This document shows, piece by piece, positions 7,387 to 27,052 of a stretch of 35,013 bases of DNA (the stretch's first letter is position 1; the number at the start of each line of letters is the position of its first letter). Under the pieces are notes generated by a model. It ran no database searches, was not told where the DNA came from, and saw nothing but the letters and a program-made list of their open reading frames with translations. The position numbers and the translations under genes were made by a program. This DNA comes from Gammaproteobacteria bacterium (GTDB taxonomy: Bacteria; Pseudomonadota; Gammaproteobacteria; Steroidobacterales; Steroidobacteraceae). The stretch is from assembly GCA_030040795.1 (NCBI GenBank), contig JASHTA010000458.1, positions 1 through 35,013 on the forward strand, in the 5' to 3' direction.

Positions 7387-7421
7387 CTACCAATCCTCTC
7401 GTCACGAGACGGACTTGGTAG
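7387..7421 (-). promoter_or_regulatory. Candidate expression-platform hairpin of riboswitch R1, overlapping the aptamer 3' end
   Basis: Minus strand: CTACCAA-g-TCC-g-TCTCG-TGA-CGAGA-GGA-TTGGTAG. The 5' arm overlaps the CCTACC end of the aptamer. Confidence 0.6.
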
Positions 7422-7467
7422 GCATCATCAGCCGATTCCCGGCGGTTCAAGGAGGAATGCCATCTCC
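7417..7467 (-). ncRNA. Fluoride riboswitch (crcB motif) R1, leader of the hyf/Ehr operon
   Basis: Minus strand GGAGATGGCATTCCTCCTTGAACCGCCGGGAATCGGCTGATGATGCCTACC: P1 GGAG/CTCC, pseudoknot GGCAT/ATGCC, P2 GCCG/CGGC, conserved AACCGC and GCTGATGA. Confidence 0.9.
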
Positions 7468-7477
7468 GTCAGCCCGG

Positions 7478-7531: not shown

Positions 7532-7560
7532 TTGCGTGCCAGAGCCGATCCCTCTAGGAT
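7532..7560 (+). promoter_or_regulatory. Candidate sigma70-type promoter for the R2/dynamin-MutS operon
   Basis: TTGCGT (7532-7537), 17-bp spacer, TAGGAT (7555-7560); predicted TSS a few nt before the R2 aptamer. Confidence 0.55.
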
Positions 7561-7571
7561 GAAGTTGACGC

Positions 7572-7624
7572 GGGAGATGGCCTCCTCCCCCAAAAGAACC
7601 GCCGCTTCGGCTGATGACGCCTGA
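7572..7624 (+). ncRNA. Fluoride riboswitch (crcB motif) R2, leader of the dynamin/ATPase/MutS-like operon
   Basis: GGGAGATGGCCTCCTCCCCCAAAAGAACCGCCGCTTCGGCTGATGACGCCTG: P1 GGGAG/CTCCC with 8-nt loop ATGGCCTC, P2 GCCG/CGGC, AACCGC, GCTGATGACGCCTG; pseudoknot GGCCTC/GACGCC with one mismatch. Confidence 0.88.
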
Positions 7625-7629
7625 ACCGC

Positions 7630-7642
7630 CCTCGCGGCGAGG
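7630..7642 (+). promoter_or_regulatory. Candidate SD-sequestering hairpin downstream of R2
   Basis: CCTCG-CGG-CGAGG, with the 3' arm containing the GAGG ribosome-binding site about 10 nt before ATG 7652. Confidence 0.5.
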
Positions 7643-7651
7643 ATCGGCGCC

Positions 7652-9736
7652 ATGTTCAACGAGAGCCAGCAACGCTATCTGGTGAGCCGGCTACGCAGCA
7701 TCGACGAGATGCTGAGCGAGGCGGTCGAGCGCCTTGCGCCCTCCGATAGCGGCCAGGTCTTTCGCGCCGTCGACGCCGATGCGACGCCCGCTCAGCGCAA
7801 GGTCCTCGCCGATCATCTCGCTCAGGTGCGCTTCGCGCTGCGCCGCTTCATGCTTGCCCGTCAGCTGCGCGACGAGCGCCGACCGACCGGAGGGTTGTGG
7901 TCCCTCCAGACCACGCTCGCTTTTGCGCAGGTTGCCGCGGAGGAGCTCAGACCCAAGTACTGGAGCGGCTACGGCGAGGTGGATCCCGAGTCCGCGGCGG
8001 CCGCCGAGCGCCTCGCGGCAGAGCTCGTGACACTGCTGCATCGGATGCAGGATTCCATCGCCCGGGGCGCGATGGGCGGACTTGCCGAGCGGATCGAGCG
8101 GCTGTCGAGCACACGCGAGGAGATTGCCCTCCTCAAGGAGCTGGAGCGCATCATCTCCCATCATGGGCTCCTCGAGCTGCGCGCGCCGCTCGAGGCGCTG
8201 GTGGAGCGAGCCGCATCGCCGCGCTTCGAGATTGCGGTCTTCGGCCGGGTGAGTGCCGGAAAGTCCTCTCTTCTCAACTGGTGGCTGGGCACCGCGCTGC
8301 TGCCCACCGGCATCACGCCGGTTACGGCGGTGCCGACCCGCATCGTGCACGGGAATGCGGCGCGCGTGCGGATCGAGCGGACCGGCGCCGCGCCGGTCGA
8401 AGTTCCCGTCGAGGATCTCGCGGCCTACATCAGCGAGCAAGGCAATCCGGCGAACGTCAAGCGAGTCCTGCGTGTTCTCATCGAAGCGCCCGCTTTGCGT
8501 CTCGAGGGCGGTATCCGCCTGGTTGACACACCGGGACTCGGTTCCCTGGCGACGGTCGGCGCGGCGCAGACGCTCGAATACCTGCCGCAGTGCGACCTCG
8601 GCGTCCTGCTCATCGAGGCCGGAGCACCTGTGGCGCCGGACGATCTCGACGTGGCCCGGGCACTTCTCGATGGAGGGAGCGACCTCGTCATCGCCTTGAG
8701 CAAGGCCGACCGGTTGAGCAGCGAAGAGCTCGAAGAGGCGCTGGCGTATGTCAAAGGGCAGTTCGAAGCTCGGCTCTCGATACCCTGCACGGTGCGGCCC
8801 GTCAGCACGGTCTCGGGGCACGAGGCACTGGCGGAGGCATGGTTTGCGGAGACCTTCGCGCCCCGCCTTGCGAGCCACACCGAGCGGGCGGCCGAGGCCC
8901 TCCGGCGCAAGATCGCCGTGCTGCGCGAATCGGTCGTCGCCGTGCTCGATGCGCGGCTGGGGCCCCCACATGCGGGATCGTCTGCGGAAGCCTCGAGCTC
9001 GGCCAAGGCTCCCCCGGTGGCCGACAGCTCGATGCGGCTCCACGACCGGATTGCACAAGTGCGCTCCGACTTCGAGCGGGCGAGATCGGAGCTGCTCGAT
9101 TTCAAGATTCGGCTGCCTCGCTTCAATGTCCGCGTGGTCGAAAGTGCGGCACGCGAGCTCGCCGGCTGCTGGATGGAAGGCGATCGGACCGCGGAACGAA
9201 CCCGGGATCGCGTGGCGGCGGCCATCGCCGGCTGTGCCGACGAGGTGGGACATGCGGTCATGAGCCGGCTCGATGAGCTGTGGGACAGCGTGATGCGAAT
9301 CGTCGAGGACAGCGCTCCCCACTTTGAGCGTGGAGCGATGGACGCCGAGAGCGCAAGGCGCGAGGCGGAGCGGGAGATCGCGCGGCCCCGCGGCCGTCCG
9401 GTATTCGATACGGCCGCGGTGTTGAGAAACCCGCTCCGGTGGGCTTCGCCCCAGTGGCTCCCCCGCTGGTCGCGCGTGCTGCTGGCGATCGCGCGGGCGC
9501 GCTTGAGACGGACGGTGCTTCCCGCCCTCACGACTCAGCTCGGTGTGTATGGCGATGCCCTTCACCACTGGGCGGTGGACTGCCTGGATCAACTGGGGCG
9601 CCGGTTCGATGCCGCGGTCGCGGCGCGCGAGAGCGCGGAGCGGTTCAGCGCGGAGCGCCCACTCACGGCGGAGGCGGCACGGGCCGCCCGGCGCGATCTC
9701 GAGCGGCTACAGCAGTGGCCGGCGGACGCGGCGTGA
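7652..9736 (+). CDS. Dynamin-like large GTPase (DLP 1)
   Basis: G1 GRVSAGKSS, G3 DTPGLGS, G4-like SKAD, DLP motif YISEQGNPANVKRV. Confidence 0.88.
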   Translation: MFNESQQRYLVSRLRSIDEMLSEAVERLAPSDSGQVFRAVDADATPAQRKVLADHLAQVRFALRRFMLARQLRDERRPTGGLWSLQTTLAFAQVAAEELRPKYWSGYGEVDPESAAAAERLAAELVTLLHRMQDSIARGAMGGLAERIERLSSTREEIALLKELERIISHHGLLELRAPLEALVERAASPRFEIAVFGRVSAGKSSLLNWWLGTALLPTGITPVTAVPTRIVHGNAARVRIERTGAAPVEVPVEDLAAYISEQGNPANVKRVLRVLIEAPALRLEGGIRLVDTPGLGSLATVGAAQTLEYLPQCDLGVLLIEAGAPVAPDDLDVARALLDGGSDLVIALSKADRLSSEELEEALAYVKGQFEARLSIPCTVRPVSTVSGHEALAEAWFAETFAPRLASHTERAAEALRRKIAVLRESVVAVLDARLGPPHAGSSAEASSSAKAPPVADSSMRLHDRIAQVRSDFERARSELLDFKIRLPRFNVRVVESAARELAGCWMEGDRTAERTRDRVAAAIAGCADEVGHAVMSRLDELWDSVMRIVEDSAPHFERGAMDAESARREAEREIARPRGRPVFDTAAVLRNPLRWASPQWLPRWSRVLLAIARARLRRTVLPALTTQLGVYGDALHHWAVDCLDQLGRRFDAAVAARESAERFSAERPLTAEAARAARRDLERLQQWPADAA

Positions 9737-10491
9737 GGCGTGGAGAGCCCGGAATGGCCGAAATGCGCTGGCCCCCCGGCTTCGTGTCGGAGTTGGCGCG
9801 GCGCCTGCGGCATGGGGAGCATCTGGCGCTTTGGGGTCCGCGCGGCAGCGGCAAATCCGCCGTCCTCGCGGAGCTTCAGGCGCGGCTGATCCGCATGCAG
9901 GTGCCCTGCGGTCTCTCACCCTCCACGACTTCGCTCGACGACATCACACGCGCGCTGGAGAGAGCCTATCCGGGTGTGGATACGGTGGAAATCGGACGGC
10001 GCACCGCCCGTGCACGGCTGTGGTGGGTTGCCGATCAGCACCCCGGGGTGCTGCTCCTCGATCACTTGTCGGATGTGAGCAATGCCATGGTCGCCTTCCT
10101 GCGCCGGTTGCACGGTGGCGTGATCGGCGCGCTCTCCGCGCTCGATGTCGACGACGAGCGCGAGCGGCGGGAGGTGAAGCCTTGGCGTTACGGCGCGATG
10201 TCCGTGCGCATGCCACTGACCTCCCGCTCCCGCTTGCGAAGGCTGCTGCGGGCGCGCCGTGCGCGTCTCGGCCTGCCGCCGCTCGATGAGAATCTGGAGC
10301 ATCGATTCCTGCACGCGGCACGGGGCCGACCCGGCTGGATCGTCCGATGCACCGAGCTCGAGTGCGATCGGCGCTACTGGTGCGAGCACGGGTTGCTCGT
10401 CACCGTGCTCTGCACGGACGCGGAGGTCGCGGTGCGCTTTGGCGCGCTCGATCTGCTTCGCCCCGCAGCGGACGCGGAGCCGCGCGTGTGA
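9733..10491 (+). CDS. Small P-loop ATPase/NTPase (GTG start at 9733 overlapping the preceding stop; ATG 9754 alternative)
   Basis: Walker A GPRGSGKS, Walker B-like HPGVLLLDHL; GTGA overlap with the upstream stop. Confidence 0.75.
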   Translation: MRRGEPGMAEMRWPPGFVSELARRLRHGEHLALWGPRGSGKSAVLAELQARLIRMQVPCGLSPSTTSLDDITRALERAYPGVDTVEIGRRTARARLWWVADQHPGVLLLDHLSDVSNAMVAFLRRLHGGVIGALSALDVDDERERREVKPWRYGAMSVRMPLTSRSRLRRLLRARRARLGLPPLDENLEHRFLHAARGRPGWIVRCTELECDRRYWCEHGLLVTVLCTDAEVAVRFGALDLLRPAADAEPRV

Positions 10492-12053
10492 CGGACGACC
10501 GGCCGTCCTTCAGCAGCATCCTTTTTGATCGTCCCTCCTGCGGCGCGGACGAGCGGCGGGGCGAGCCGGAGTGCTTCGGAGATCTGCATCTGGATCAGAT
10601 CGTGGCGGCGGTGACGGCGGGGCGCGGCGAATACGAGCTGCAATCTCTCTTCCATGCCCCTCTGCAGAGCATCGCGGCCATTCACTATCGCCACGAGGTT
10701 TTCCGCGATCTGGAGGATCGCGTGCTGCGTGCGCGGGTCGGCGCCTTCGGCGAGGCCATGCGGAGCGTGCGGGAGCGCCTCGCTCAGTCGCAGAAGGCAC
10801 ATTACCGCCTGCAGCAGCAGCGCTGGTTTCTCGATGCCGCGAGCCTCTATTGCGAGGCTGTCGTGCGGCTGCACGCGGATCTCGGCGCGACCCAGGTGCA
10901 ATCGCGCGGGCTGTGCGCTTTGCGCGGCTTTCTGGGTCCATTCGTGCGCTCCGAGGGATTCGGATCGATGCGCGATGAGGCACGGCGGATCGCCGAGGCT
11001 CTCGCGGCGATCCGCTACGAGCTGTACATCGACGGCGCTCGCATCGAGGTGCGGCGCGATCAGGGCGAGCCCGACTACGGCGCCGAGGTGTCGAAGGTTT
11101 TCGCCAAGTTCGAGCGGCCGGGAGCCAAGGAGTACCGATTCCGTTTCCACGAGTACCGGGACATGAATCACGTGGAAGCGGAGATCCTCGAGCGCGTCGC
11201 CCTGCTCTTCCAGAGCACCTTCGCCGCGCTCGCGGCGTTCTGCGATCGCTATCGCGAGGCGGCGTTCGATCCCACGATTCTGCGGTTCGACCGGGAGGTG
11301 CAATTCTATCTCGCGTATCTCGAGCACAGGGCTCACATCGAGGCCGCCGGCCTTGCCTTCTGCTATCCGGAAGTCAGTGACCGCTCGAAGGCCGAAGGGG
11401 GCGAGGCGTTCTTCGACCTTGCGCTCGCGGGCCGCCTCGCAGCCGAGCGCAAGGCAGTCGTGACCAACGACTTCCATCTCGAAGGCGCGGAGCGAGTCCT
11501 CGTCGTCTCCGGCGCCAATCAGGGAGGCAAAACCACGTTCGCCCGCGCATTCGGCCAGCTTCACTATCTTGCCGCGCTCGGATGCCCGGTGCCGGCGCGC
11601 AAGGCGCGGCTCCTGCTCTTCGATGGGCTTTATACGCACTTCGAGCGGGAGGAGCGCGTCGAGAGCCTGCGCGGCAAGCTCGAGGATGAGCTCCTTCGGA
11701 TGAGACGCATCCTCGATGCGGCCACCGCGCGCAGCGTCCTCATCATGAACGAGAGTTTCGGCTCCACGACGCTCGAGGATGCGCTCTACCTCGGGCAGCG
11801 GGTTCTGCGCCGAGTGATCGACCGGGACCTCATCTGTGTCTGCGTGACTTTCGTCGAGGAGCTCGCCTCGCTCGATCGGGCGACGGTCAGCATGGTGAGC
11901 CAGGTCGATCCGGCAGACCCCACGGTGAGGACCTTCCGCGTGGTGAGGCAGCCTGCGGACGGGCTCGCCCACGCCCTCGCGATCGCCCGCAAGCATCATC
12001 TCCGCTACGAGGAGATCCGAGCGCGCATCGTGGCCCGGAGCGCTTCCGCATGA
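10488..12053 (+). CDS. MutS-like ATPase A (no mismatch-recognition domain apparent)
   Basis: GTG start at 10488 overlapping upstream stop; Walker A SGANQGGKTTFARAFGQ, Walker B-like SVLIMNESFGSTT aligned to the MutS ATPase core. Confidence 0.85.
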   Translation: MTDDRPSFSSILFDRPSCGADERRGEPECFGDLHLDQIVAAVTAGRGEYELQSLFHAPLQSIAAIHYRHEVFRDLEDRVLRARVGAFGEAMRSVRERLAQSQKAHYRLQQQRWFLDAASLYCEAVVRLHADLGATQVQSRGLCALRGFLGPFVRSEGFGSMRDEARRIAEALAAIRYELYIDGARIEVRRDQGEPDYGAEVSKVFAKFERPGAKEYRFRFHEYRDMNHVEAEILERVALLFQSTFAALAAFCDRYREAAFDPTILRFDREVQFYLAYLEHRAHIEAAGLAFCYPEVSDRSKAEGGEAFFDLALAGRLAAERKAVVTNDFHLEGAERVLVVSGANQGGKTTFARAFGQLHYLAALGCPVPARKARLLLFDGLYTHFEREERVESLRGKLEDELLRMRRILDAATARSVLIMNESFGSTTLEDALYLGQRVLRRVIDRDLICVCVTFVEELASLDRATVSMVSQVDPADPTVRTFRVVRQPADGLAHALAIARKHHLRYEEIRARIVARSASA

Positions 12054-13630
12054 AGGCGCATCTGATGTTTCAGGACCGCGACTTCGACGCGAAAGCCGCG
12101 TTGCCGCGATCGGCCCAGGCGTTGACGCAGGACCTCGGGCTCGATGCGCTGTTCGATGCAATGGCGCAGGGCGACGAGTTCCTGCAGGACGTGGCGCGGC
12201 ACGCCGTGCTGACGAGCCTCGCGGATCCCGGGCAGATCGCCTATCGCCAGCGCGTTCTGGAGGACTCCCTCGCGCATCCCGACATCGCGAGGGACATGTA
12301 TGCGCTTGCGGTGGACGCGATCGAGCGTGAGAGACGGATCTGGGGCTGGACGCTCGACCGGCATCCGGAGAGCGTGCTCCGCCGTTCGCTCGATGTGCTG
12401 CGTCTTTTCGTCGAGATCCTGAGGAAGCTGAAGCGGATCGCCGAGGAGCGGGCGGAAGAGGTCCGCTCGGAAGGCTTCACGGGCCTATTTGCGATGCTGC
12501 GGACCGAGCTCGGCGAGGAGTATCTCGGGGAGGTCGAGCATCACCTCTCGCGCCTCGAGCTGCGCCGAGGCATGGTCCTCGGCGCGAAGCTCGGGGAGGG
12601 GAACAAGGCCGCCGGCTACGACCTGCGCAAATCCTCCGAGAGCCGAGGCGGCCTGCTGCAGCGGATTCAAACCTGGGTGGGACAGATCGGAAGCGATGAG
12701 CGATCGAGTCATGCCTTCGAGATCGACCCGCGTGATGAGGCCGGTCATCAGGCGCTCGGCGACATTCGCAGCCGCGGACTCGCCGTTGTCGCCATGAGAG
12801 TGGGGGACGCGGCCGATCACACGCTCGGCTTCTTCAGGATGCTGCGCGCCGAGCTGGCGTTCTATGTGGGTTGCCTCAACCTCCGGGACCGCCTGGCGGG
12901 AAAGGGCGAAGGGGTGTCGATCCCGCACACGGCACCGGCGGCGGACGAAGCACTTGCCGGCCGAGGCCTGTACGACATCGCGTTGGCGCTCAGCATGGAC
13001 GGCCGGGTCGTGGCCAACGACTTCAGCGCCGACGGCAAGCGCCTGATCATGATCACAGGCGCGAACCGCGGTGGCAAAACGACGTTCCACCGCAGCCTCG
13101 GGCAAGCCCAGCTGATGATGCAATGTGGCCTCTTCGTTCCGGCGGCGTTTTTCCGTGCAAGCCTCTGCGCCGGCGTGTTCACGCATTACAAGCGCGAGGA
13201 GGACGCCGGCATGAGGACGGGCAAGCTCGAGGAGGAGCTCAATCGGATGAGCGCGGTCGTGGACGAGCTGCGGCCGGGCAGCCTCATGCTGTTCAATGAA
13301 TCATTCGCCTCGACGAACGAGCGCGAGGGATCGGAGATCGCGCGCCAGATCGTGCAGGCGCTCCTGGACTCGGACGTGAGGGTCGCCTATGTCACGCACC
13401 TCTACGATCTCGCGCACGGGCTCCATCGTGCGCGGATGGGGACGGCGCTCTTTCTTCGCGCGGAGCGCCTGGCGGACGGTCGCCGGACGTTTCGCGTATT
13501 GGAAGGCGAGCCGCTGCCGACGAGCTACGGCCCGGACCTCTACAGCAGAATCTTCAGCGCGCCGCAGTCCGATGCGCCGAGTAGCGGCGGCCGACCCATG
13601 CAAAGAGAGGTACGGCCGCAAGCTGGGTGA
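12050..13630 (+). CDS. MutS-like ATPase B
   Basis: ATGA overlap with upstream gene; Walker A TGANRGGKTTFHRSLGQ, Walker B-like SLMLFNESFASTN. Confidence 0.85.
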   Translation: MKAHLMFQDRDFDAKAALPRSAQALTQDLGLDALFDAMAQGDEFLQDVARHAVLTSLADPGQIAYRQRVLEDSLAHPDIARDMYALAVDAIERERRIWGWTLDRHPESVLRRSLDVLRLFVEILRKLKRIAEERAEEVRSEGFTGLFAMLRTELGEEYLGEVEHHLSRLELRRGMVLGAKLGEGNKAAGYDLRKSSESRGGLLQRIQTWVGQIGSDERSSHAFEIDPRDEAGHQALGDIRSRGLAVVAMRVGDAADHTLGFFRMLRAELAFYVGCLNLRDRLAGKGEGVSIPHTAPAADEALAGRGLYDIALALSMDGRVVANDFSADGKRLIMITGANRGGKTTFHRSLGQAQLMMQCGLFVPAAFFRASLCAGVFTHYKREEDAGMRTGKLEEELNRMSAVVDELRPGSLMLFNESFASTNEREGSEIARQIVQALLDSDVRVAYVTHLYDLAHGLHRARMGTALFLRAERLADGRRTFRVLEGEPLPTSYGPDLYSRIFSAPQSDAPSSGGRPMQREVRPQAG

Positions 13631-15714: not shown

Positions 15715-15723
15715 TGCCGCCAC

Positions 15724-15770
15724 GGGGATGGAGTCCCCCGCGAACCGCTCTCGATGCTAATGACTCCTGC
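15724..15770 (+). ncRNA. Fluoride riboswitch-like element (crcB motif) R3, plus-oriented, no evident cognate gene
   Basis: GGGGATGGAGTCCCCCGCGAACCGCTCTCGATGCTAATGACTCCTGC: P1 GGGG/CCCC with 8-nt loop ATGGAGTC, pseudoknot GGAGTC/GACTCC, AACCGC, GCTAATGA; P2 is weak. Confidence 0.75.
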
Positions 15771-15876
15771 CCAGTGTGTCGGATTGCACGCGCGGCAGGA
15801 GCATGCATGCCGGCCGCGTAGCGGGTATGCCATGCGCCAAGAGCACGCCGAGTCGTTCGCGCTTGAAAAGCCCTGC

Positions 15877-17658
15877 CTATCCCATTCCCTGCACGCCGGC
15901 GACTCGTACGAGACGCGCATCGAGCGCGGCGATTCTGCGCCGCAGCTCGTCGATGGCCGACGACCGATCGGCGGCTCGCTCCGCACTGCGCCGGCGGATC
16001 GCGATGCCGTTGGCGATCGCGGTATCAATTCCGCCGACCGTCGTGTCGATCTGCCGCAGCATCTGTCGTTCCGCCTCGTGCACGCTCTTCTTCAGCCGCT
16101 CCTCGATATCGTGGCGAATCCGTCCCGCCTGTGTCTCGACGAGCTCGGTTGCCGTCGCCTTCATGCGCCTGACGATGAGGGGACCGGCCAGCATCCGCGG
16201 CAGCGCGAGGACGGCGGCGGAGGAGAGGAGTTTCAGGCTCGTCGGCTCGTACCAGAATTTGTAGTAGAAGTGAGACTCCGTCGTCCAGCGGGAATCGGTT
16301 CGGATGCCTTCGAACTGCACCGCGAACAGCTCGCTCGAATGACGCATCAGCTCATCGACGCTCTCCTGCAGGCTCGCCCAGAACCGGGAGCACAATGTCT
16401 CGAAGGCGCGCGAGAGCTCGACATCCTCGCGAACGAGCCAGCTCTCATAGGCGGAGCGGATCTCTTGGATGACCCGGTCTTCGAGACCGAGCTGCAGCTG
16501 CCGGGCCGGTTGCTTTTTCAGGTCGGAGAACCACCGGTCGACGCACTGGCCGATGTGGGCCTGCTGCTCGCGCATGAACGAGTCGAGGCCCGGCTCGATA
16601 TCCTCCTTGAGGAGCCTCCGCGCATCCGCTTCGAGCAATACCTGCGTGTCGGCTCGGACGCGCTCGGCCTTCGCCTTTTCTTCGCGAAACGCCGCGACGT
16701 TCGCCTCGAATCGCTCGAGCGGCTCGGTGAGCGCCTTCGATTCGACGTCGAGCGCGAAGCGCGCCTGCGCGAGCAGCCGCTTGAGACTGCGGACGAGCGA
16801 GCTCAGCCACGCGTCCGTCTTCTCGCTCGCCATGAAGCGGCGCAGGGTCGACTCGAGCTCGCGAAAGCCGCTGCGCGCGAGCGCCTCGGAATCTCCCGCC
16901 CGCTTCCCATCGAGCGCGAGCCGGGCGGAAACGGCAAAGATCGGTACCTCGGCGTCGAGCGCTTTGCGCACCGCCGCGCTCGAGAACGCCAGCGCCTCGC
17001 GAAGCTCCTCCGGACGGAGGTAGTCCGTCTTGTTGAGCACGCAAAAGACCTTGCCGGCGTAGGCGCGGATGTCCTTGAGGAAGTCGAGCTCGGCGCGGCT
17101 CACCGGTTGGTCGACGGAGGCCACGAACAGCACCGCATCGGCCTGCGGCAGGTACTTGCGAGTCTCGTCGGTGTTGTGCTCGTAGACGGAGCCGATGCCC
17201 GGCGTGTCGACGAGTCTCACGCCGTTCGCGAGCCAGGGCGAGGGATGATCGATGACGACGCGCTCGACGCCCTTCGCGTTGGCGGGATTGCCCCGCTCCG
17301 TCACGTACTCGCCGAGCGCCGCCGGCTCGATCGTGAGCCGTTGTCCGCCTCGCATCTCCATGTGAACCCGCACGTGAGGACCTGCGCGGATGGCCGTGAC
17401 GACCGAGGTGAGGGGTACAACGCCCGCGGGCAGCAAGGGCTCTCCGAGCAGGGCATTGATGATGCTGCTCTTGCCGCGCTTGAATTCGCCCGCGACGACG
17501 AGATTGAACACCTCGTCACCGAGCTTCTCCTCGAGCCAGCGACACGTCTCCGCGTCGACGCCGGGCAGCGCGGCCGCCTCGCGGAGACAACTCTCGAGCT
17601 CGAGGCGCCGCGAGTCGTCCGCGGCGTTTGCTCCCGGCAGGGCCATTGGACTGCTCAT
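15877..17658 (-). CDS. Dynamin-like GTPase (DLP 2); start MSSPMALPGAN at 17658 favoured
   Basis: G1 GEFKRGKSS, G3 DTPGIGS, G4 NKTD, YVTERGNPANAKGVERV; SD GGAAGGAG at 17667-17674. Confidence 0.9.
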   Translation of the reverse strand: MSSPMALPGANAADDSRRLELESCLREAAALPGVDAETCRWLEEKLGDEVFNLVVAGEFKRGKSSIINALLGEPLLPAGVVPLTSVVTAIRAGPHVRVHMEMRGGQRLTIEPAALGEYVTERGNPANAKGVERVVIDHPSPWLANGVRLVDTPGIGSVYEHNTDETRKYLPQADAVLFVASVDQPVSRAELDFLKDIRAYAGKVFCVLNKTDYLRPEELREALAFSSAAVRKALDAEVPIFAVSARLALDGKRAGDSEALARSGFRELESTLRRFMASEKTDAWLSSLVRSLKRLLAQARFALDVESKALTEPLERFEANVAAFREEKAKAERVRADTQVLLEADARRLLKEDIEPGLDSFMREQQAHIGQCVDRWFSDLKKQPARQLQLGLEDRVIQEIRSAYESWLVREDVELSRAFETLCSRFWASLQESVDELMRHSSELFAVQFEGIRTDSRWTTESHFYYKFWYEPTSLKLLSSAAVLALPRMLAGPLIVRRMKATATELVETQAGRIRHDIEERLKKSVHEAERQMLRQIDTTVGGIDTAIANGIAIRRRSAERAADRSSAIDELRRRIAALDARLVRVAGVQGMG

Positions 17659-17695
17659 GACGACGACTCCTTCCATCATGCGCTCGAGCGCATGC

Positions 17696-17819
17696 GGCAG
17701 GAGTCATCAGCGCCGGCCGCCCCAAGAAGGGGCGTCCGGTGCGTTCCGATGCTCGCGGCCCGCTCAGTCCCGGTTCCGGAAGCTCGAGCGAGTGGAGGAC
17801 CGCGGGGGACTCCATCCCC
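17696..17819 (-). ncRNA. Fluoride riboswitch-like element (crcB motif) R4 with an inserted stem, leader of DLP 2
   Basis: Minus strand GGGGATGGAGTCCCCC ... GGAACGCACCGGACGCCCCTTCTTGGGGCGGCCGGCGCTGATGACTCCTGCC: P1 and pseudoknot as in R3, long P2 (GC.CCGG.CGCCCC/GGGGCG.CCGG.GC), GCTGATGA; about 57 nt inserted between P1 and the AAC-GC segment. Confidence 0.72.
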
Positions 17820-17836
17820 AAGCGTGGTAGGACGAG

Positions 17837-24071: not shown

Positions 24072-25760
24072 ATGCCGGAGCACGATTTCGTCATTGTCGG
24101 AGCCGGTTCGGCCGGCTGTGTGTTGGCCAACAGGCTCTCGGAGGATGGCGCCCACCGTGTGCTGCTCCTCGAGGCGGGCGCGAGCGATCACCGCATGCTG
24201 ACGGCCGTTCCTGTCGCGTGGCTCGCGGCGGCGAGCACGCCGGCCATCGGCTGGGGCTTCGAGGCGGAGCCCGAGGCCGCGACGGACCTGCGCAGCATCC
24301 CTCAGCCTCGTGGGAAGCTTCTCGGCGGGACCTCCTCGATCAACGGGATGATGTACAGCCGTGGCAACGCCGGCGATTACGATCGGTGGCGCGATGCCGG
24401 GCTTGCCGGGTGGGGATTCGCAGACGTGCTGCCGTACTTCAAGCGCATGGAGACGAGCTGGCGCGGCGAGGGTCCCTTTCACGGTGGCTCGGGACCCCTC
24501 GCCGTCTCGCGCCAGCCGCGCGATCCGTTCATCACGCCTCGCATGCTGGAGGCCGCCGCGAGGCTCGGTTACGCCGAGAGCGCGGACTTCCACGGTCCGC
24601 AGGCCGAAGGCTTTGGACTGCCTGACTTCACCATCCGCCGGGGCCGCCGCGACAGCACGGCGATCGCCTATCTCGCCCCGGCACAGCACCGGCGCAACTT
24701 GACCGTGGAGACGCGCGCGCACGCGACACGCGTCGTGATCGAGCACGGCCGCGCGATCGGCGTGGAGTACGTGAAGAGCGGACAACGGCACCTCGCGCGT
24801 GCGGCGCGCGAGGTGATCGTAGCCGCCGGCGCGTTCAACTCACCGCAGCTGCTGCTGCTCTCCGGAATTGGACCGCCGCGGGAGCTCGAGGCGGCAGGAA
24901 TCGCGCCGCTGCACGCGCTGGCCGGCGTGGGCAAGAACCTTCAGGACCATCCGCTCGTCGTCGCCGCCTACCGGGCGTCGCGCCCCTGCACGTTCGAGCG
25001 CGCGCTACGGCTCGACCGCCTCGCGCTCGCGCTGCTCGCGTGGCGGCTCGCAGGCACAGGGCCGCTCGCCGCGAATCCCATCTCGATTCAGGGCTTTCTG
25101 CGGCTCGGGTCGGCGGCTCGCTGGCCCGACGTGCAGTTCCAGGTGTCGCATGTCTCGATGCTGGCGCGGCCGTGGTTTCCGGGCTGGCGGCCGGGAGCCG
25201 GACACCAGTTCACGGCCGTCGCGCTGAGCCTGCGTCCGGCCGGGACGGGGGAAGTGACCTTGCGCTCCGCCGATCCGTTGGCTTCGCCGCGTATCCGGCT
25301 CGGCCTGCTCGGGAACGAAGCCGACCGGCGCACCGCTCGGGAGATGCTGAGGCTTGCGCGCCGGTTCTTCGCGACGGATCCCGTATCGGCGCTCGTCAGC
25401 GCGGAGCTCGCGCCGGGTCCCGCCGCCCGCTCGGACGAGGAGCTCGATGCGTACATTCGCGCGACGATTCAAACCGGAGCGCATCCGGCCGGCACGTGCG
25501 CGATGGGCCGGGACGATCCCGCGGTGCTCGATGCGCACCTCAAGGTGCGGGGAATCGAGTCGTTGCGAGTGGCCGATGCCTCCTCGATGCCCGACGTGGT
25601 GAGCGGCAACACGAATGCGCCCACCATCATGATCGCGGAGAAGGCCTCCGATTTGATTCTGGGCCGGCCGCCGCCCCCGCCGTCATCGTTCCCGCTGTCG
25701 CCCGCGCCAGAGCCGCTCAGCTCCGCGGGAGCAACAGCCGGCTCACCGCGATCGCGGTGA
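24072..25760 (+). CDS. GMC-family FAD-dependent oxidoreductase (choline/alcohol dehydrogenase-like)
   Basis: FVIVGAGSAGCVLANRLSE, RGKLLGGTSSINGMMYSRG, C-terminal HPAGTCAMG...LRVADASSMPDVVSGNTNAPTIMIAEKASDLIL. Confidence 0.93.
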   Translation: MPEHDFVIVGAGSAGCVLANRLSEDGAHRVLLLEAGASDHRMLTAVPVAWLAAASTPAIGWGFEAEPEAATDLRSIPQPRGKLLGGTSSINGMMYSRGNAGDYDRWRDAGLAGWGFADVLPYFKRMETSWRGEGPFHGGSGPLAVSRQPRDPFITPRMLEAAARLGYAESADFHGPQAEGFGLPDFTIRRGRRDSTAIAYLAPAQHRRNLTVETRAHATRVVIEHGRAIGVEYVKSGQRHLARAAREVIVAAGAFNSPQLLLLSGIGPPRELEAAGIAPLHALAGVGKNLQDHPLVVAAYRASRPCTFERALRLDRLALALLAWRLAGTGPLAANPISIQGFLRLGSAARWPDVQFQVSHVSMLARPWFPGWRPGAGHQFTAVALSLRPAGTGEVTLRSADPLASPRIRLGLLGNEADRRTAREMLRLARRFFATDPVSALVSAELAPGPAARSDEELDAYIRATIQTGAHPAGTCAMGRDDPAVLDAHLKVRGIESLRVADASSMPDVVSGNTNAPTIMIAEKASDLILGRPPPPPSSFPLSPAPEPLSSAGATAGSPRSR

Positions 25761-27003
25761 GCGCAGCCGCCGCCGAGCCCAGGAGAATTCCGAGCTTTGC
25801 GGCGCGCAGCAGAGCCTCGTCCGCGAAGGCCAGCCCGGCGACGAAGATCGACAGGGTAAAGCCGATCCCACCTAGACAACCGACGAGCAGGACGCCCTTC
25901 ATCGTCACGCCACGCGGCAGCGCACAGAGGCCGAGCTTGAGGCACGCGAGTGTGGCGAGGGTGATGCCGAGCGGCTTGCCGAGGACGAGCGAGGCGGCGA
26001 TTCCCGCAGCGAGCGTCGATTGCGCGGCGCCGTCCAGAGCGAGTCCACGAAAGTCGATCCCGGCGTTGGCCAGAGCGAAGATCGGCATGATGCCGTACGC
26101 GACCCATGGATGCAGCGCATTGCTGAGGCGTACGGACAGTGAAACGGCTTGCAGTGGCGCCGAACGGGAGTCCGAGACCGGAACGAGGAAGCCCAGAATC
26201 ACGCCCGCAAGAGTCGGATGGACGCCGCTGCGCAGCAGTCCGATCCAGATGACGACGCCCGCAGCAACGTAGATCGGCCATCCCAGCAGCCGGAGACGGG
26301 CGAGGGCGATCACGGAGGCCGACGCCGCTGCGACTACGGCAAGACTCGCGAGCGAGAGGCTATTCGAGTAGCCGAATGCGATGATGACGACTGTGCCGAT
26401 GTCGTCGATGATGGCGAGCGCGAGGAGCAACGCGCGCAGCGGGCGAGGCACGCGCGGCCCGAGCAGAGCGAGCACGCCTACGGCGAATGCGATGTCGGTC
26501 GCCGTTGGCACGGCCCATCCTCGCCACAGCAGCGGTCCGTGGTCGATCGCAAGGAAGGTGAGGGCGGGCGCGATCATGCCCCCGAGCGCCGTGACGACGG
26601 GGAGCATGGCGAGCCGGCGGCTCGCTAGCGCGCCCTCGTGCACCTCCCGGCGGACTTCGAGGCCCACGACCAGAAAGAAGACGCTCATGAGACCGTCGTT
26701 GACCCAGAACTGAAGTGTTCGCGTCGAGACGGCGCCGCCGATCGAGAACGGGAGAGGTAGATGCCACAGCCTCTGGTAGGCGGCAGACCAAGGTGAGTTT
26801 GCCCAGACGAGCGCGACTGCCGTGGCGGCGAGAAGGACGAGTGCACCCGCGGCTTCGATGTGCAGGAAATGCGCGACGGGGCCGCCGAACCGGCGCGCGA
26901 CAACACGCGTCAGGTGCGAAGGGGATCGAGCGGGCAGGCGGGGCTGGGGTACCGATCTCGGCACGGGCAAGTCCTCGAAGGGCTGGCGGCCCGACCAACC
27001 CAA
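25717..27003 (-). CDS. nhaA: Na+/H+ antiporter NhaA
   Basis: FFLVVGLEVRREV, PTATDIAFAVGVLALLG, LALAIIDDIGTVVIIAFGYS, GCLGGIGFTLSIFVAGLAF. Confidence 0.93.
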   Translation of the reverse strand: MGWSGRQPFEDLPVPRSVPQPRLPARSPSHLTRVVARRFGGPVAHFLHIEAAGALVLLAATAVALVWANSPWSAAYQRLWHLPLPFSIGGAVSTRTLQFWVNDGLMSVFFLVVGLEVRREVHEGALASRRLAMLPVVTALGGMIAPALTFLAIDHGPLLWRGWAVPTATDIAFAVGVLALLGPRVPRPLRALLLALAIIDDIGTVVIIAFGYSNSLSLASLAVVAAASASVIALARLRLLGWPIYVAAGVVIWIGLLRSGVHPTLAGVILGFLVPVSDSRSAPLQAVSLSVRLSNALHPWVAYGIMPIFALANAGIDFRGLALDGAAQSTLAAGIAASLVLGKPLGITLATLACLKLGLCALPRGVTMKGVLLVGCLGGIGFTLSIFVAGLAFADEALLRAAKLGILLGSAAAALTAIAVSRLLLPRS

Positions 27004-27052
27004 AAGACCTGCCGCGCCAATCGTGGCAGGCGCGGTACCCGTTCATAGATTT

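Follow-up and report, generated by a model that had tools for sequence, protein, structure and literature searches.

Fluoride riboswitches (Rfam family RF01734) reportedly had fluoride identified as their ligand in 2012, and what is known of the family leads one to expect an ON switch. Few inducing signals are, to our knowledge, known for bacterial dynamin-like proteins. Weinberg et al. (2010, PMC2864571) already listed mutS and formate hydrogen lyase genes in association with the crcB motif. Our literature search found no report joining fluoride riboswitches or bacterial fluoride resistance with dynamin, and a dynamin in a fluoride riboswitch regulon appears new to the literature, the riboswitch itself being of a known kind.

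Within the window, the whole 35,013-nucleotide (nt) stretch analyzed here, a first-pass annotation had placed a fluoride riboswitch, here referred to as R2, directly ahead of a dynamin-like GTPase gene. The covariance-model search that it proposed bore this out, since cmscan reported an RF01734 match at 7564-7630(+) with 39.8 bits against the gathering cutoff of 34 (E value of 8.6e-8, or 2.3e-9 when the family was searched over the whole genome), and a protein with a Dynamin_N domain begins at ATG 7652. In the cmscan alignment, complemented by a script, P1 is formed by GGGAG (7572-7576) and CTCCC (7585-7589), the pseudoknot 5′ strand GGCCTC (7579-7584) lies within the P1 loop, and a joining segment (7590-7598) leads to the P3 hairpin GCCG-CTT-CGGC at 7601-7611 (stem 7601-7604/7608-7611), which is followed by the pseudoknot 3′ strand GACGCC (7616-7621). 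Both helices and the conserved core letters are all kept, with zero broken pairs. Judged by its sequence, R2 is a genuine RF01734 fluoride riboswitch, with fluoride binding itself predicted. It stands back to back with a divergent fluoride riboswitch, R1 (7412-7476, minus strand; 58.5 bits), 87 nt away, which leads a NuoH/Hyf-like operon and has a perfect pseudoknot, GGCAU/AUGCC.

The C-C mismatch that had been noticed earlier in the R2 pseudoknot (GGCCTC/GACGCC) proved real: the script found five of the six pairs of GGCCUC/GACGCC formed and C·C at pair 4 (C7582·C7618). When pseudoknots were read by script in 64 aptamers, three combined a single mismatch at pair 4 with a Watson-Crick C-G at pair 6 and the 3′ strand GACGCC, namely, R2 (GGCCTC/GACGCC), the riboswitch ahead of this genome's second Hyf operon (GGCTTC/GACGCC), and a MutS leader of B. 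cenocepacia (GGCATC/GACGCC). The letters at the mismatch site differ among these three natural copies of the GGCNUC/GACGCC pattern, and at position 6 the remaining fully read GGC.../...GCC pseudoknots either have U·G or are unpaired. When 369 genomes of the class were searched by pattern for the GACGCC sub-type, only the two copies of this genome came up. The calculated helix energy of the R2 pseudoknot is −3.8 kcal/mol versus −6.6 kcal/mol for the common GGCATT/GATGCC, i.e., about 2.8 kcal/mol weaker, and from this weak helix with its C·C mismatch a higher fluoride threshold is predicted; R2 would need more fluoride, or would switch less fully, than its neighbor R1. Across 37 riboswitches, pseudoknot strength and OFF-state strength were not correlated (rho −0.22, p 0.19). 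In a published study (PMC11077080), switching by the fluoride riboswitch was found to require a wobble as the topmost pseudoknot pair, and the mismatch in R2 could possibly offset the loss of that wobble.

Downstream of the aptamer, the pseudoknot end at 7621 lies 30 nt upstream of ATG 7652, and a Shine-Dalgarno (SD) sequence, GAGGA (7639-7643), precedes the ATG by 8 nt. Folding of the free RNA predicted an OFF hairpin at 7614-7653(+), in which AUG.CGCC (7614-7621) pairs with GGCG.CAU (7646-7653) and buries the start codon; the pseudoknot 3′ strand paired with GGCGCCAU at probabilities of 0.76-0.87. Locking the pseudoknot raised the unpaired probability of the ATG from 0.15 to 0.59, while the accessibility of the SD did not rise (0.57 to 0.45). 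In the mechanism that we propose, the pseudoknot 3′ strand (AUGACGCC) would, without fluoride, block initiation through pairing with GGCGCCAU at the start codon, whereas binding of Mg and fluoride would capture the 3′ strand in the pseudoknot and free the start, and the downstream genes would follow the dynamin gene through translational coupling. The OFF pairing was matched by 82 of 200 dinucleotide-shuffled downstream sequences, i.e., it is not above shuffles, so the translational ON switch proposed by the first-pass annotation is for R2 something that we infer. It is nevertheless likely, given the expectation for the family and the sibling leaders, whose overlap pairing beats chance. One sibling is the variant riboswitch at 17691-17828(−), before dynamin-like GTPase 2 (15877-17679, minus strand), which scores 25.4 bits, under the cutoff of 34, and in which P3 is extended and a long additional hairpin separates P1 from P3. 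The SD of this leader, AGGAGTC, is perfectly complementary to its pseudoknot strand GACTCCT, and the pairing of that strand with the downstream sequence reached 1.00 (0/200 shuffles as good). The corresponding counts were 0/200 for the leader of an apparent CBS-domain gene on contig C197 of this genome and 4/200 for that of the second Hyf operon, and in a C197 leader, too, the SD exactly complements the pseudoknot strand. The aptamer, the pseudoknot, the SD, the start codon, the tight operon, and the setting in a fluoride island are directly supported by the sequence. According to the folding models, R2 most likely acts on translation initiation via its own pseudoknot strand. That it raises expression of the dynamin-AAA-MutS-MutS operon upon fluoride entry by releasing the start codon, through switching steps that we infer, seems to us a reasonably probable account.

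A different OFF structure had been suggested earlier, a hairpin CCTCG-CGG-CGAGG that would mask the SD until opened by fluoride. This hairpin is present at 7630-7642(+) and covers GAGG, but its predicted probability rises from 0.01 in the free RNA to 0.42 once the pseudoknot is locked, which is the reverse of OFF behavior and speaks against it as the OFF structure. Moreover, it shares zero bases with the aptamer, which leaves ligand binding without a direct way to open it, and we regard SD masking by this hairpin as highly improbable. We also give little credence to the reading that R2 binds fluoride yet acts on transcription through Rho-dependent termination. Rho is used by many proteobacterial leaders, and the failure of locking to release the SD in the predictions would suit such a mechanism; it is at odds with a leader in which no intrinsic terminator was found between aptamer and ATG, with a span of just some 85 nt separating the ATG from the predicted transcription start, and with the overlap of the siblings' pseudoknot strands with the SD or start.

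The mismatch and a lengthened joint raise the further question of whether R2 is a decaying copy that has been broken by both, leaving the operon constitutive or driven by another promoter. R2 is the lowest scoring of the three above-threshold RF01734 aptamers in the window, its pseudoknot falls in the weakest class, and its expression platform is no better than chance. However, the conserved core letters GATGG, AACCGCC, and GGCTGATGA are all intact, and a mismatch at the same pair, again combined with the C-G pair, is seen in two further genomic contexts, one of them a MutS leader; this recurrence in two independent sibling riboswitches argues against simple decay. The joining segment is 5 nt above the Rfam consensus length, the extra nucleotides, absent from the first-pass annotation, lying between P1 and AACCGCC. 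Judged from the aligned copies, this insertion is inside the natural range, such inserts being common at the P1-P3 joint (29 nt in the dynamin 2 leader and 27 and 19 nt at loci L020 and L024). We consider decay unlikely; R2 is probably functional, and probably weaker than the average fluoride riboswitch.

The best two-hexamer match to a sigma-70 promoter upstream of R2 (7 of 12 positions) is TTGCGT (7532-7537), a spacer of 17 nt, and TAGGAT (7555-7560), i.e., 7532-7560(+). The putative −10 hexamer ends 15 nt upstream of GATGG, and most other sampled fluoride riboswitches have 11-20 nt here. Taken alone, this putative promoter is not above chance (40 of 200 shuffles reach 7/12), and a stricter promoter scan of the R2 leader found none. 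Between R1 and R2 lies a perfect 10-bp inverted repeat, 7503-7512/7526-7535, which overlaps both putative divergent −35 hexamers and is possibly an operator.

The first gene of the R2 operon (7652-9736, plus strand) encodes the 694-amino-acid (aa) dynamin-like GTPase 1, which matches Pfam Dynamin_N at 68.9 bits (cutoff 27; E value of 7.1e-19) and carries the motifs GRVSAGKSS (P-loop), DTPG, and SKAD. The nearest solved sequences are IniA and 5owv, annotated as a GTP-binding protein, which we take to be the Campylobacter dynamin-like protein; the predicted structure has helical flanks at low confidence (mean pLDDT 57.6). Among 196 other genomes sampled from the order (E ≤ 1e-20) and 398 sampled from the phylum (E ≤ 1e-30), no close orthologue of dynamin 1 was found, and a scan of genome contigs returned one locus, in B. 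anthina. No close counterpart of the R2 leader came to light. An AAA ATPase of 245 aa (9754-10491, plus strand; Pfam AAA_22, 30.5 bits versus 27) starts 17 nt past the dynamin stop, and is followed by two MutS-like proteins with MutS_V domains, the first (10488-12053, plus strand) overlapping the AAA ATPase gene by 4 bp and the second (12050-13630, plus strand) overlapping the first by 4 bp. The 17-nt gap and the two overlaps make these four genes one operon by sequence. Each MutS-like protein is 45% identical to a protein of the B. multivorans island described below. We rejected a mismatch-repair identity for them, as the NCBIfam MutS equivalog gave 63.8 bits against a cutoff of 480 and the ATPase domain V alone matches. 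An anti-phage reading of dynamin and MutS was likewise rejected, the dynamins having weak LeoA-like matches and the AAA and MutS proteins none, in a neighborhood of fluoride genes. The MutS pair also occurs on plasmids of Rhodococcus, Mycobacterium, Alicyclobacillus, Caballeronia, Rubrobacter, and enterobacteria. In seven loci of other organisms (L013, L014, L016, and L021-L024) a fluoride riboswitch stands directly ahead of it, which makes the window operon a standard MutS unit preceded by dynamin and AAA genes.

The operon behind R2 is part of a fluoride-resistance island that includes CrcB, DUF190, MutS, CLC, and Hyf-like genes, and further island content comprises an MFS protein, two more dynamins, a Dyp peroxidase, and NhaA. 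Directly ahead of NhaA (25717-27003, minus strand) we observed an nhaA-I RNA (RF03057, 49 bits) at 26981-27040(−). The source assembly is of metagenome type and 77% complete; its three genuine dynamins all lie within the island. On contig C97 (L009 1-17493), which shares 197 identical bases with the window start and so extends the island to about 52 kb, there is a second operon of the Hyf-like type that has a fluoride riboswitch of its own (16714-16775, minus strand); a possible leader open reading frame (ORF) of 22 codons comes after this riboswitch. Including R2, this genome has seven above-threshold RF01734 copies. Matches above the cutoff occurred in 57 of 399 sampled genomes of the phylum (this one included), and this genome was the only one with more than two. 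Three further fluoride riboswitches of this genome are on contig C197 (L008 4340-6252), two of them preceding, as judged by eye, apparent CBS-domain proteins and a prenyltransferase-like protein.

The first-pass annotation had called a dynamin as first regulated gene unusual. Around 29 further riboswitches sampled from the phylum, no dynamin lay within about 1.5 kb, yet the arrangement recurs at dynamin 2 and in Burkholderia, so "unusual" is right as to frequency and wrong as to uniqueness. Islands of the same kind were found on plasmids of B. multivorans and B. cenocepacia (NZ_CP143553 and NZ_CP073671) and on a B. anthina contig (NZ_CABVLY010000003), all three with the order riboswitch, hypothetical protein, dynamin. 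Going by gene order and domain matches, dynamin-like GTPases are recurrent members of fluoride islands, and two in this window stand directly behind predicted fluoride riboswitches. Next to dynamin 2 we observed another above-threshold fluoride riboswitch (15715-15776, plus strand; 46.4 bits). It has the promoter-like pair TTGACG-17-TAATCT, and its pseudoknot strand is matched by a complementary SD; the sense ORF downstream runs antisense to dynamin 2, and this is an orphan or antisense riboswitch. On a plasmid of Lichenicola cladoniae (L015 11777-13521), a dynamin gene whose product is 42% identical to dynamin 3 of the window is divergent from a riboswitch-led crcB.

A fluoride switch ahead of two of the three dynamins here, together with the Burkholderia plasmid dynamin operon, offers a concrete and cheap test of what dynamins protect against, and the repeated occurrence of the mismatched pseudoknot amounts to a natural experiment on threshold tuning by fluoride riboswitches. 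We put forward only tentatively, as a rather doubtful proposal, that there are dynamin-like GTPases dedicated to the fluoride regulon which form a module against fluoride stress together with the paired MutS-like ATPases (e.g., in protection of membranes or P-loop NTPases), and that the mismatched, weak-pseudoknot riboswitch sub-type sets a higher threshold for such second-line genes. A part for dynamin in protecting membranes, or in tolerating metal-fluoride inhibition of P-loop enzymes, is speculative.

Compared with the RF01734 family, R2 is alike in its score above gathering, its P1/P3/pseudoknot layout, its conserved core, and its 5′ leader position in a fluoride island, and it differs by the C·C mismatch, by C-G replacing the usual U·G at the pseudoknot top, by the longer P1-P3 joint, and by dynamin as the first gene. 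Dynamin 1 shares with the bacterial dynamin-like proteins 5owv, IniA, and BDLP (2j68) the GTPase domain, including G1, G3, and a G4-like motif, and, in a low-confidence model, long helical flanks; it is alignable with them in the GTPase region only, and membrane action is putative. In the crcB-RNA MutS operons (PMC2864571), the same two gene classes are found that flank R2 and R1 here, whereas in the window dynamin and AAA ATPase genes separate the MutS pair from the riboswitch. Finally, the Burkholderia islands have a riboswitch in the dynamin operon in common with this locus, and identity with them is about 85% for NuoH, about 45% for the MutS pair, and 26% over 451 aa for dynamin. There, the dynamin gene is second, after the riboswitch and a gene for a 238-aa hypothetical protein, and the MutS pair lies on the other strand with its own riboswitch, whereas here dynamin comes first and the MutS pair is part of its operon.
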